From the NCBI RefSeq assembly GCF_017357005.1, contig NZ_CP071589.1, forward strand, positions 1,550,001 to 1,614,000: a stretch of 64,000 bases of DNA, read 5' to 3'. Positions within the stretch are counted from its first letter, which is position 1. Each line of letters starts with the position of its first letter. The notes beneath the pieces are model-generated. The model did no database searches and had not been told where the DNA came from. It saw only the letters and a program-made list of their open reading frames with translations. Shown piece by piece: positions 8,574 through 38,984 of the stretch. The position numbers and the translations under genes are program-made. The DNA comes from Staphylococcus simiae. GTDB lineage: Bacteria > Bacillota > Bacilli > Staphylococcales > Staphylococcaceae.

Positions 8574-8885
8574 ATGAAAAGAGTATCTTATTCATTAGAA
8601 ACTAAAAATAAAGCTATTGAAATGAAAAGTGCTGGTTATACTTCAAAACAAATTATGGAGACCTTAAATATTAGAAATAGAACACAGGTCGATACATGGT
8701 GGCGTTGGTATCGAAATGGAGAAAGTTATAGATTTTCTCAACAAGTAGGAAAACAGTACAGTTATGGCAAGGGTATTGAAGAATTAAGTGAATTAGAAAG
8801 ACTAGAATTAGAGCTTAAAAGAAAAGATGTTGAATTGGACATTTTAAAAAAGTACAAAGAATTGGAAAGGAAGTGGTTCCAGTAG
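8574..8885 (+). CDS. IS150-group transposase OrfA (helix-turn-helix), also first half of the OrfAB fusion
   Basis: 103-aa DNA-binding protein with an N-terminal HTH (SLETKNKAIEMKSAGYTSKQ) and a C-terminal leucine-zipper-like stretch (ELSELERLELELKRKDVEL) typical of IS3-family OrfA. An ACGGAGGTG site precedes the ATG. The zero-frame sequence A AAA AAG at 8846-8852 is a canonical -1 slippery heptamer. Slippage there joins OrfA to the OrfB frame, giving a product of about 380 aa (8574-9715), the functional transposase in this family. OrfA alone usually represses transposition. Confidence 0.92.
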   Translation: MKRVSYSLETKNKAIEMKSAGYTSKQIMETLNIRNRTQVDTWWRWYRNGESYRFSQQVGKQYSYGKGIEELSELERLELELKRKDVELDILKKYKELERKWFQ

Positions 8886-9715
8886 TAGTTATAGAATTAG
8901 TAGAAGAATTGAAGGATAAGTATTCAACCAAAATGATACTTGAGGTTTTAAACATACCTAAATCAACATTTTATAGATGGAAAAAGAACCAAAATAAAAT
9001 AGATTTTATTACTGAAAAAGTCATTGAATTATGTGAAGAAAACAACTATACCTACGGTTATCGAAAGATTACAGCGCTAATTAATCAATCATCTTCTGTA
9101 CCTGTTAATCATAAACGAATTCAGAGAATTATGCAGGAGAACAATTTGAATTGTCGAGTTAGACCTAAAAAGGCTAAAAAAGCTGGATCTGCTTATTATA
9201 AAACAGATAATTTATTACAAAGACAATTTAAAGCTAATCAACCAATGAAGTTACTAACTACTGACATTACTTATTTACCATTCGGTAATTCAATGTTGTA
9301 TTTATCTTCGATTATGGATCTTTACAATGGAGAGATTGTGGCATATAAAATAGGATCTAAACAGGATCAAAATTTAGTTAACGAAACATTAAATCAACTA
9401 GATATACCCGAGGGTTGTATACTACATAGCGATCAGGGAAGTGTGTATACATCGTATTCTTACTATCACTTATGCGAAGAAAAAGGCATTGTCAGAAGCA
9501 TGTCCCGTAAGGGAACACCTGCTGACAATGCCCCGATAGAAAGTTTCCATTCCTCGCTAAAGTGTGAAACCTTTTATCTCAACAATGAGCTTAGTAGCTC
9601 TAATAACATTGTAATCGATATTGTGGAAAAATACATTGATTATTATAATAAATTTAGAATTCAACAAAAACTAGGCTACTTTTCTCCTATAGATTTTAGA
9701 AAATTAGCAGCCTAG
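8873..9715 (+). CDS. IS150-group transposase OrfB (DDE catalytic domain)
   Basis: 280-aa frame in the -1 phase relative to OrfA, opening with a GTG that overlaps OrfA by 13 bp. It is normally made as the C-terminal part of OrfAB by frameshifting at 8846-8852. The DDE triad is visible: D131 (LLTTDITYLPFG), D187 (HSDQGSVYTS) and E223 (NAPIESFHSSLK). The last two are separated by 35 residues, as required for the IS3 D-D(35)E catalytic core. An HTH_21-like region (YGYRKITALINQ) precedes the core. No stop or frameshift interrupts it. Confidence 0.93.
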   Translation: MVPVVVIELVEELKDKYSTKMILEVLNIPKSTFYRWKKNQNKIDFITEKVIELCEENNYTYGYRKITALINQSSSVPVNHKRIQRIMQENNLNCRVRPKKAKKAGSAYYKTDNLLQRQFKANQPMKLLTTDITYLPFGNSMLYLSSIMDLYNGEIVAYKIGSKQDQNLVNETLNQLDIPEGCILHSDQGSVYTSYSYYHLCEEKGIVRSMSRKGTPADNAPIESFHSSLKCETFYLNNELSSSNNIVIDIVEKYIDYYNKFRIQQKLGYFSPIDFRKLAA

Positions 9716-35519: not shown

Positions 35520-36815
<1,296 letters not shown>

Positions 36816-36849
36816 TTATATTATAAGTTTAATTGATAATTATCATAAA

Positions 36850-38715
36850 ATCGAGTAGGAGGATAACCATTATTTGATTATCCGTCCTCTCACACCACCG
36901 AGCGTACGGTTCCGTACTCGGCGGTTCAATATCTTGCGTAAGCCGTCTCTGCGAGTTGGGTTAATGGTTCTAACCCCCACTTGTAGAGACGTTTTGTTGT
37001 AAGTGCACGATGAACTTCATGCGTTGATGATAAGCGCCAGTATTTCTTTCTTGAATTGGCAATTTTCATTGCACTCTTATGGTCAAGTCCATACTTACGT
37101 AACATCTTATATTTGGTTTTTATTCTTTTCCATCTTTTGAGGATTAGTTGTCTAATGCGTCGGTTTAACCATGATTGTAACTTCGTTACAAAACCTGTAA
37201 TAAATCCTTTACCAAAGTAATTTATCCACCCTCGTGTTACTTGATTAATTTCTGATATAATCTCTTTAAAGGTACCTGGTCTATTTCGTTTCGTTAGACG
37301 TCTTAAGGTGCGTTTTAAATTTCTTCTTGCTTCCATAGTCGGTCTGAAACGATAAGTGCCATTTACTTTGGTCATTAGACAACTCAAGAACTTTAAACGT
37401 GTGATAGAACCTACCTTGCTCTTTTCACTATTTACAATAAGTTTAAGGTCTTTTTCGATAAACTTTGTCACACTTTCCATGACACGTTGACCCGCTCGTT
37501 TTGTACGTACAAAGATGACGAAGTCATCTGCATAACGAACAAAGCGATGACCACGTTTCTCCAATTCATTATCTAATTCGTGAAGATAAATATTACAAAG
37601 TAACGGGGAAATAACACCACCTTGCGGTGCACCTATTTCTCTACTTCGATAATTACCATTGAGGTCGATTGCACCAACCTGTAGGCTTCTACGAATAAAT
37701 TTAGAAATGGCTTTATCTTGAACATGTCGTTCAAATAGATACATTAATTTATCATGGTTCAACATATCAAAGCACTGTTTTAAATCACAATCAACTGCAA
37801 CTAAGTAACCTTCTTCATAGTATGTTGCACATTCTTTAAGTGCAGTTCCTGTACTACGATTCGGTCTAAAGCCATGACTGTGTTTTGAGAAAGTACGGTC
37901 GATACTAGGTTCAATGACTTGTTTAATGGCTTGTTGGATAACTCTGTCTCTTGCGACAGGGATTCCAAGCACGCGCTTTTTCCCATTTGATTTAGGTATT
38001 TCAACCTTTCTTACTGCTTGTGGCTTATACGTGCCATCAAGCAGTTTTTGTTTAATTTGTGGAAAGTATTTTGCGAAATGTGATGTTAATTCACTTACTC
38101 GCATGCCATCGATGCCAGGTGCACCGTTGTTTTTCTTCACTTTCTTAATTGCTTTTTGTATATTATTCTCTCTTACAACAAGCTCCATCATAGATGGAGA
38201 CTCACGATACATTTCTTTCATTTCACCTAAGATTTACTGTACGCACTCATATATCCTTTTTCGTTCCACTACTTATCTTTCTATGAGTTGCCAATCATTA
38301 ATTGTATTCTGTACGTTGTAAATCTCTAACCTCCATTCTTTACTTTGTATGAATATTGTTCAGTCCTTCAGTATTTCTACCTACTATGACCTCTGCTGAC
38401 TTCTCATCATTCGTTATTACTACGATTTTTTTTATCGCTGATGAGACCTCCCCGGGTAAGAGTAACCACTTTCCACTCATTCCACTGCATCATTTACTAT
38501 ATAGAACTCGGGTAGTATCGGACTTTATCTTGTATTGCAGATTCATCCATTCCACATAGCCTTGTATGATATTTCTGTTCGTCAGTGCGAGTGTTTGCGT
38601 CCGACTTCCTTCAGATTCCATTTCACAATGGACACCCTTGTCTTTCGCTAACAGTTCCTACTACCAAGCCTGTAACGGACTTTCACCGTCTAGTAATTAC
38701 CCATGCCGGGCGCAC
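36850..38715 (-). mobile_element. Group II intron, bacterial class C, with maturase ORF
   Basis: The 5' end on the minus strand reads GTGCGCCCGGCATGGGT (from 38715), a class C-type start matching the GTGYG rule. Domains I-III occupy about 38222-38715. The maturase gene is in domain IV. Domain V is the hairpin at about 36892-36927 (GAACCGCC...GGTGGTGT with a GGAAC cap), with the CGC-type catalytic triad of class C. Domain VI is about 36855-36885. The sequence is close in form to the Oceanobacillus iheyensis group IIC intron as I remember it. The 3' end is placed at the AT at 36850, with 36855 as an alternative. It sits right after a terminator U-tract, the known class C target. Confidence 0.9.
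36926..38221 (-). CDS. ltrA: Group II intron-encoded reverse transcriptase/maturase
   Basis: 431 aa. The RT domain spans about 20-290. NNGAPGIDGM is at 31-40, HGFRPNRST at 116-124, GAPQGGVISPLL at 197-208 and the catalytic YADD at 230-233. A maturase (X) domain follows (RGWINYFGKGF onward). The protein ends soon after, with no HNH endonuclease domain, as in class C introns, which home without second-strand cleavage. It promotes splicing and retrohoming. Its TGA stop (36928-36926) overlaps the first bases of domain V. Intact frame, so the intron could be mobile. Confidence 0.93.
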   Translation of the reverse strand: MKEMYRESPSMMELVVRENNIQKAIKKVKKNNGAPGIDGMRVSELTSHFAKYFPQIKQKLLDGTYKPQAVRKVEIPKSNGKKRVLGIPVARDRVIQQAIKQVIEPSIDRTFSKHSHGFRPNRSTGTALKECATYYEEGYLVAVDCDLKQCFDMLNHDKLMYLFERHVQDKAISKFIRRSLQVGAIDLNGNYRSREIGAPQGGVISPLLCNIYLHELDNELEKRGHRFVRYADDFVIFVRTKRAGQRVMESVTKFIEKDLKLIVNSEKSKVGSITRLKFLSCLMTKVNGTYRFRPTMEARRNLKRTLRRLTKRNRPGTFKEIISEINQVTRGWINYFGKGFITGFVTKLQSWLNRRIRQLILKRWKRIKTKYKMLRKYGLDHKSAMKIANSRKKYWRLSSTHEVHRALTTKRLYKWGLEPLTQLAETAYARY

Positions 38716-38949
38716 AATAAAAATGCACCCTCACAAATATGTAAGGGTGCATTGTGCACGTTACCACCAAACTTAAACATAACTTTAATGTATGTTCACT
38801 CTATTAATGATACGTTCATTAATTAAACGTAGGATATCATATTAAGAGGTGTATTCGTATGACGAACATTACCAGTTTGCAGCGACCACTAGCTCTCTTA
38901 AAATGCAAATCATATTACTTGTCCTCGTACCCTATTTCATTATACATTT
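38716..38949 (-). promoter_or_regulatory. Tyrosine-specific T-box riboswitch (leader of tyrS)
   Basis: On the minus strand the leader shows the stem I terminal motifs GAGAGCTAGTGG and CTGCAAACTGGTAATG, then a specifier loop GAA-TAC-ACC with the Tyr codon UAC at 38853-38851. The T-box-like GGTGGTAACGTG is at 38768-38757. The terminator ATGCACCCTTAC (38752-38741) pairs with GTGAGGGTGCAT (38734-38723), followed by TTTTTATT. Uncharged tRNA-Tyr should favour antitermination. The intron begins at the next base after this U-tract. Confidence 0.9.
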
Positions 38950-38955
38950 TCTCTA

Positions 38956-38984
38956 ATTATAATTAAGGTAAATTTAAAAGTCAA
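38956..38984 (-). promoter_or_regulatory. Promoter of the tyrS T-box transcript
   Basis: TTGACT (38984-38979), a 17-bp spacer and TATAAT (38961-38956) on the minus strand. It lies in the -35 region of the divergent sgtA promoter. Confidence 0.85.

Follow-up and report, generated by a model that had tools for sequence, protein, structure and literature searches.

A group IIC intron lies directly behind the terminator of the tRNA-sensing T-box leader of tyrS in the chromosome of Staphylococcus simiae. We consider it likely that transcription of this recently multiplied intron, set behind an intact tyrosine T-box terminator, starts at the leader promoter, extends over the maturase and tyrS, and takes place mainly while tRNA-Tyr is uncharged, and that splicing would restore the ancestral leader. 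The window analyzed here is a stretch of 64,000 nucleotides, and its minus strand reads, in order, a promoter, a tyrosine T-box with the specifier UAC, a 12-bp terminator, TTTTTATT, the 1,866-nt intron without a gap, 67 nt of leader, and tyrS (Table 1). The initial annotation had placed a IIC intron at the U-tract of a tyrosine T-box terminator, in the sense orientation and with a complete maturase, and the sequence analysis confirms this. What is new is a recurrent combination of known parts with a specific predicted consequence.

Table 1. Features of the tyrS locus, in window coordinates
Feature	Position	Strand	Basis
Sigma-A-type promoter of the tyrS leader	38956..38984	-	TTGACT-17-TATAAT, 11/12; TTGACT...TATAAT likewise placed in sister species
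T-box leader, tRNA-sensing	38740..38940	-	RF00230, 86.9 bits, E 6.8e-19; Rfam gathering score of 93 not reached
Specifier codon UAC (Tyr) in GAA-UAC-ACC	38851..38853	-	GAATACACC in 29/29 fetched loci of relatives
T-box antiterminator motif GGUGGUAACGUGC	38756..38768	-	RF00230 alignment; GGTGGTA[AC]CGTGC in 29/29 fetched loci of relatives
Hairpin of the terminator and, at the same time, 5' exon stem-loop for the intron	38722..38753	-	12-bp core stem, loop of 4, -20.2 kcal/mol
U-tract UUUUUAUU (TTTTTATT in DNA)	38716..38723	-	ends in UAUU, a candidate IBS1
Group IIC intron, 1,866 nt, GUGCG ... CGAU	36850..38715	-	ribozyme matches; 20 identical copies; empty site in relative
Candidate EBS1 AAUA	38533..38536	-	domain I, loop of RF02001 alignment, by eye; complements UAUU (4 bp)
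Intron-encoded reverse transcriptase/maturase, 431 aa	36926..38221	-	RVT_1 and GIIM (Pfam); TIGR04416, 393.5 bits
Intron domains V and VI	36850..36926	-	RF00029, 45.9 bits
Candidate branch-point A	36856	-	by position only, 7th base from the intron end
3' exon, residual tyrS leader	36783..36849	-	67 nt; AGGAGG at 36790-36795; matches sister-species leader
tyrS, tyrosine--tRNA ligase	35520..36782	-	TIGR00234, 452 bits; single copy found in genome

The tyrosine leader and its intron

The promoter of the tyrS leader lies just beyond position 38949, the upper limit of the segment to which the initial annotation applied, and the specifier UAC agrees with the synthetase gene downstream. The alternative terminator and antiterminator folds of the T-box leader are both present in the fold prediction; calculated with no tRNA, the leader reaches -29.4 kcal/mol with the terminator and -13.3 with the 3' arm of the terminator blocked, a gap of 16 kcal/mol. 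When the leader is folded together with the start of the intron the terminator stem is kept (mean pairing 0.99), and the antiterminator region pairs with the very start of the intron, a predicted interaction that might hide the 5' splice site and could either help or hinder splicing.

The intron begins with GUGCGCCCGGCAUGGG and ends with CUACUCGAU at 36850 on the minus strand, and its ribozyme matches RF02001 (144.8 bits), RF01998 (52.3) and RF00029 (domains V-VI, 45.9). The assignment to group IIC agrees with the ribozyme domains, with a maturase free of an endonuclease (the Pfam scan gave matches to RVT_1 and GIIM only, and none to an endonuclease domain), and with a target site that follows a terminator stem-loop and offers a short EBS1-IBS1 pairing. 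GsI-IIC RT is the nearest relative of the maturase by sequence among solved structures (PDB). All 17 plasmid records that match the intron are from Staphylococcus, with 60-95% identity, and 10 of them cover at least 80% of its length.

The unbroken leader in relatives

We searched 84 genomes of the genus (83 relatives) for tyrS and fetched the loci of 30, of which 29 are from other species. A single tyrS is present in 83 of the 84 genomes, and G041 has two; the match in G058 is partial, with one stop. The UAC specifier motif is present in all 29 of the other-species loci, as is the antiterminator motif, and the intron start is absent from the available stretch of each of them; the T-box and intron pattern occurs in one of the 84 genomes, that of the window. 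In the closest relative (G061, TyrS 98%) the leader reads GGGTGTATTTTTATTTTTTATGATAATTATCAA where the window has GGGTGCATTTTTATT, the intron, and TTTATGATAATTATCAA. At the junction G061 has the bases of the window, TTTTTATT and TTTATGATAATTATCAA, apart from an additional T where the two meet in G061, and the few differences lie farther off. We assign the T that follows the tyrS intron to the exon, since three of the 33 insertions in this genome have another base at that position. The unbroken leader of G061 and the motifs shared by the relatives indicate that the T-box is ancestral and the intron a newcomer, the intron-free state being known from other species rather than from sister strains. 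Comparison with an intron-free tyrS leader, which the initial annotation had proposed as the way to establish the ends of the insertion, was made with a sister species; its leader is free of the intron, and the boundaries are fixed.

The 20 identical copies of a 1,866-nt sequence in this chromosome are hard to assemble, and their collapse could in principle have created a false junction at tyrS. We regard such an artefact as highly improbable, because the genome is a single contig, the two flanks together make up a leader that a relative has in one piece, and G153 and G431 (below), two further genomes assembled as single contigs, have the same arrangement.

Expression of tyrS behind the intron

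The initial annotation had held that tyrS expression must pass through the intron or be restored by splicing, and a need for splicing is made less likely by the position of the intron in the untranslated leader, behind which tyrS keeps its own Shine-Dalgarno sequence. The fold predicted for the RNA before splicing leaves the AGGAGG (36795-36790) free of pairing, which speaks against the possibility that the UCCUCCU in domain VI masks it. The read-through mRNA could thus be translated unspliced, and splicing is probably optional for TyrS.

tyrS might instead have become uncoupled from the T-box, being transcribed now from a promoter in the 3' end of the intron or in the 67-nt residual leader. 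The residual leader does contain a TATAAT at 36825-36820 that is also present in the sister species, and IIC-attC introns are reported to carry outward promoters, according to a title in the reference list of PMC4424553. However, a TATAAT within the last 80 nt before tyrS is found in only four of the 29 relatives' leaders, and a consensus scan gives no promoter-like site in the residual leader; that scan, over both strands of 2.4 kb, yielded eight promoter-like sites where 9.8 are expected by chance, one of them being the leader promoter. We consider uncoupling quite improbable, and favor transcription from the leader promoter.

A plausible series of events can be proposed for the T-box-governed reading. 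With no tRNA the leader would terminate and leave the intron untranscribed, because the terminator fold is better than the blocked fold by 16 kcal/mol. With uncharged tRNA-Tyr, and applying what is established for T-boxes, formation of the antiterminator would let RNA polymerase continue through the intron and tyrS. The read-through transcripts would carry the intron ahead of tyrS, and TyrS would be translated from its own ribosome-binding site in either the spliced or the unspliced form. Once RNA polymerase has passed, the leader would be expected to refold to the far more stable terminator hairpin, and the refolded hairpin would serve as the exon stem-loop for recognition of the 5' splice site. 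That the tyrS copy is transcribed mainly when tRNA-Tyr is uncharged is in this sense a prediction by analogy from T-box logic. An aspect that is new relative to the initial annotation is that the hairpin which must be kept open for transcription of the intron is the same exon stem-loop that IIC introns use to locate the 5' splice site.

A more elaborate version, which we put forward as fairly unlikely, is a gate with two levels. Uncharged tRNA would open the terminator for transcription, but the antiterminator held by the tRNA would withhold the exon stem-loop until the tRNA leaves, such that the amino-acid state would govern transcription and splicing of the intron alike, and the copies behind T-box and PyrR terminators would be starvation-induced sources of an otherwise silent family.

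The intron family and its target rule

The 2.62-Mb chromosome contains 33 insertions of the intron, comprising 20 identical copies, six with one to three differences, and seven split by a 2.2-kb insertion sequence, one of the seven being a diverged copy (87-88% alike). Twenty-six of the 33 are therefore uninterrupted, including the tyrS copy, leaving 25 others. The intron-start pattern gives 33 matches in this genome and none for the reversed control, and chance does not account for them. The 5' exons, folded over 60 nt, reach about -10 kcal/mol or lower at 32 of the 33 sites, the exception being L024 (-4.7 kcal/mol). From -5 to -1 the 5' exons of the 33 sites follow the consensus T(T/A)(A/G)TT, and the first base of the 3' exon is T at 30 sites. 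The element is thus a recently active IIC family that obeys the usual target rule, and the identity of 20 copies suggests recent mobility. Nearly all of the 33 insertions adjoin hairpins, and the tyrS T-box was therefore probably targeted for being a terminator and not for sensing tRNA. The suggestion in the initial annotation that starvation is perhaps coupled to mobility is weakened, as the 25 other uninterrupted copies could supply maturase. We also note that two sites, L024 and L002, have weak or untypical hairpins ahead of the intron (-4.7 and -10.0 kcal/mol).

A second insertion in this genome (L010) lies behind a conditional terminator. Its leader matches RF00515 with 49.2 bits (E 8e-4), under the gathering score of 54, and contains AGTCCAGAGAGGCT, which we take to be the PyrR binding loop; pyrR begins 25 bases 3' of the intron (NF003546, 347 bits), and in a relative the same pyrR leader is unbroken with an identical junction. 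The PyrR attenuator of the pyr operon resembles the tyrS site in that its termination is conditional and a copy of this intron follows, although it senses PyrR and uridine nucleotides whereas the T-box senses tRNA. Two of the 33 insertions (tyrS and pyrR) are thus in regulated leaders, with the other loci compared to Rfam at the gathering level and weaker matches allowed for a few of them.

Recurrence in other bacteria

The initial annotation had suggested a search of other genomes for class C introns beside T-box terminators, and the arrangement proves to be recurrent and not unique to this locus. We scanned genome_contigs (84,980 genomes) with a pattern in which 23-83 bases containing a T-tract separate a T-box core from a IIC start, and a T-box directly before a class C intron was found in 13 contigs. 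All 13 match the T-box model with E of 2e-11 or better, eight of them above gathering. Every one of these matches lies within about 710 bases of one end of its stretch, such that the scan may undercount, and in 12 of the 13 the available stretch stops 22 to 651 bases into the intron, with the downstream gene out of view. The Alloiococcus otitis contig has a T-box (GUA), an intron with a run of unknown bases inside, and valS, and is otherwise complete. Specifiers could be read by eye in six of the 13 contigs, giving Val (L132), Tyr (L124), Trp (L127), Ile (L129 and L134) and Pro (L136), and are not safely assignable in the other seven (L125, L126, L128, L130, L131, L133 and L135).

A sample of 398 genomes drawn evenly from the phylum gave five matches including that of the window (four in the 397 others), all five with a T-box match, and the reversed-pattern control gave none. 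The 397 genomes besides that of the window together contain 530 intron starts, and the reversed start pattern occurs seven times in all 398. The rates of the genome_contigs scan and of this sample differ, and of the four other sampled genomes with a match only G237, which has the same sequence as contig L128, is represented in the 13 contigs. In G431 a T-box (60.2 bits, specifier ACC) is followed by a 1,880-nt intron and thrS, and in G101 a T-box (97.8 bits, specifier GUC) is followed by a 1,896-nt intron with a maturase and valS. In G153 a T-box (119.5 bits, specifier CUC) is followed by four tandem IIC introns and then leuS. The whole order of T-box, intron and synthetase gene is thus present at four loci besides the window, with valS (two), thrS and leuS downstream, and in all five of the whole-order loci, the window included, the specifier as judged by eye fits the downstream synthetase.

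The leuS locus of G153 has two peculiarities of its own. The four introns (L175, 676-3323) are arranged head-to-tail behind one terminator, each of exactly 662 nt with no exon between them, a length that leaves no room for a maturase gene. Its T-box leader (L175; L176, 8394-8468) contains a tRNA-Ala gene (anticodon GGC) with CCA directly after it, situated before the antiterminator motif.

Neither a T-box nor a PyrR motif was found in the 49 assessable intron flanks of a separate sample, which was drawn as 60 loci, of which nine were dropped for lack of the start pattern and two of the remaining 51 were too short upstream; two of the flanks are from the genome studied here. Viral contigs gave no match to the T-box/intron pattern. 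We considered and rejected a preference of the introns for T-boxes, as the observed rates (one of the 33 insertions here, four matches in 397 genomes with 530 intron starts, and none in 49 flanks) need none. A strong avoidance of T-box sites, a notion based on the 13 contigs of the larger scan, was likewise dropped, given the matches in four of the 397 other genomes.

These considerations bear on the strongest competing model, to which we give somewhat less than an even chance, namely that the insertion at tyrS is an ordinary IIC insertion behind a terminator, and the T-box has no consequence for expression or mobility of the intron, with the other copies making the maturase and the tyrS copy being silent or irrelevant. 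It overlaps with the model that we favor, as both take the choice of site to be accidental. T-box terminators are, however, read through by design when their tRNA is uncharged, and the single copy of tyrS must be transcribed either through the intron or from behind it. On the other side are the three rates just given, which call for no preference, and the 25 other uninterrupted copies. Further support comes from PMC8919778, where IIC introns behind terminators are inferred to be rarely transcribed.

Relation to known systems

The insertion of IIC introns behind intrinsic terminators, with a strand bias and supposed silence, is known (PMC8919778), and B.h.I1 is a class C intron behind intrinsic terminators (Robart et al. 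2007 and Toor et al. 2006, as represented in PMC8919778, PMC7161350 and PMC4424553). As far as these accounts go, the tyrS intron shares with B.h.I1-type introns the ribozyme class, the endonuclease-free maturase, the hairpin-plus-T target, and an orientation on one strand per chromosome half. It differs in that the terminator at tyrS is a regulated T-box switch within a leader, with the regulated gene downstream, and the view that IIC introns are rarely transcribed would consequently not hold for this copy under starvation. Relative to other tyrS T-box leaders (RF00230), the UAC specifier, antiterminator motif, terminator and downstream synthetase gene are shared, but the window has a 1.87-kb mobile intron between the terminator and the gene. 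In titles and the starts of abstracts, a search in which subscription papers were mostly not included, we found no published link of group II introns to T-boxes, riboswitches, attenuation or synthetases. Behind a conditional terminator, be it a T-box or a PyrR attenuator, a selfish element would become nutrient-regulated without a regulator of its own. Given the recurrence before several synthetase genes, the timing of IIC intron expression and splicing can be probed through a single defined input, namely how far one tRNA is charged.

Further observations on the insertions and the window

The orientation of the insertions is divided along the chromosome, the 20 from 0.17 to 1.16 Mb being without exception on the plus strand and the 13 from 1.26 to 2.54 Mb on the minus strand, a split that is expected for replication-tied insertion if base 1 is assumed to be near the origin. 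The element that interrupts seven of the intron copies is presumably IS21-like, a name that we base on its istA/istB-like open reading frames. There are 13 full copies of it in the chromosome, of which seven are inside intron copies (L027-L033) at seven different positions and two more are less than 1 kb from an intron; the introns make up about 2.35% of the genome, and the binomial chance of seven of the 13 copies being inside them is about 6e-9.

One intron copy (L013, at 781762 in this genome) is situated 38 bases past the end of the tmRNA gene, where the terminator of that gene is likely to be. Small-RNA families of S. aureus in Rfam match loci near insertions in the genome. Within the window, positions 9519-9616 on the minus strand match the Listeria RNA rli23 (86.6 bits); this match is probably part of an insertion sequence, as it is antisense to an open reading frame at 8873-9715 that by eye is transposase-like. 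The plus strand at 61096-61388 matches the Staphylococcus sRNA S35 (RF02894) with 72.3 bits, relative to a gathering score of 69.
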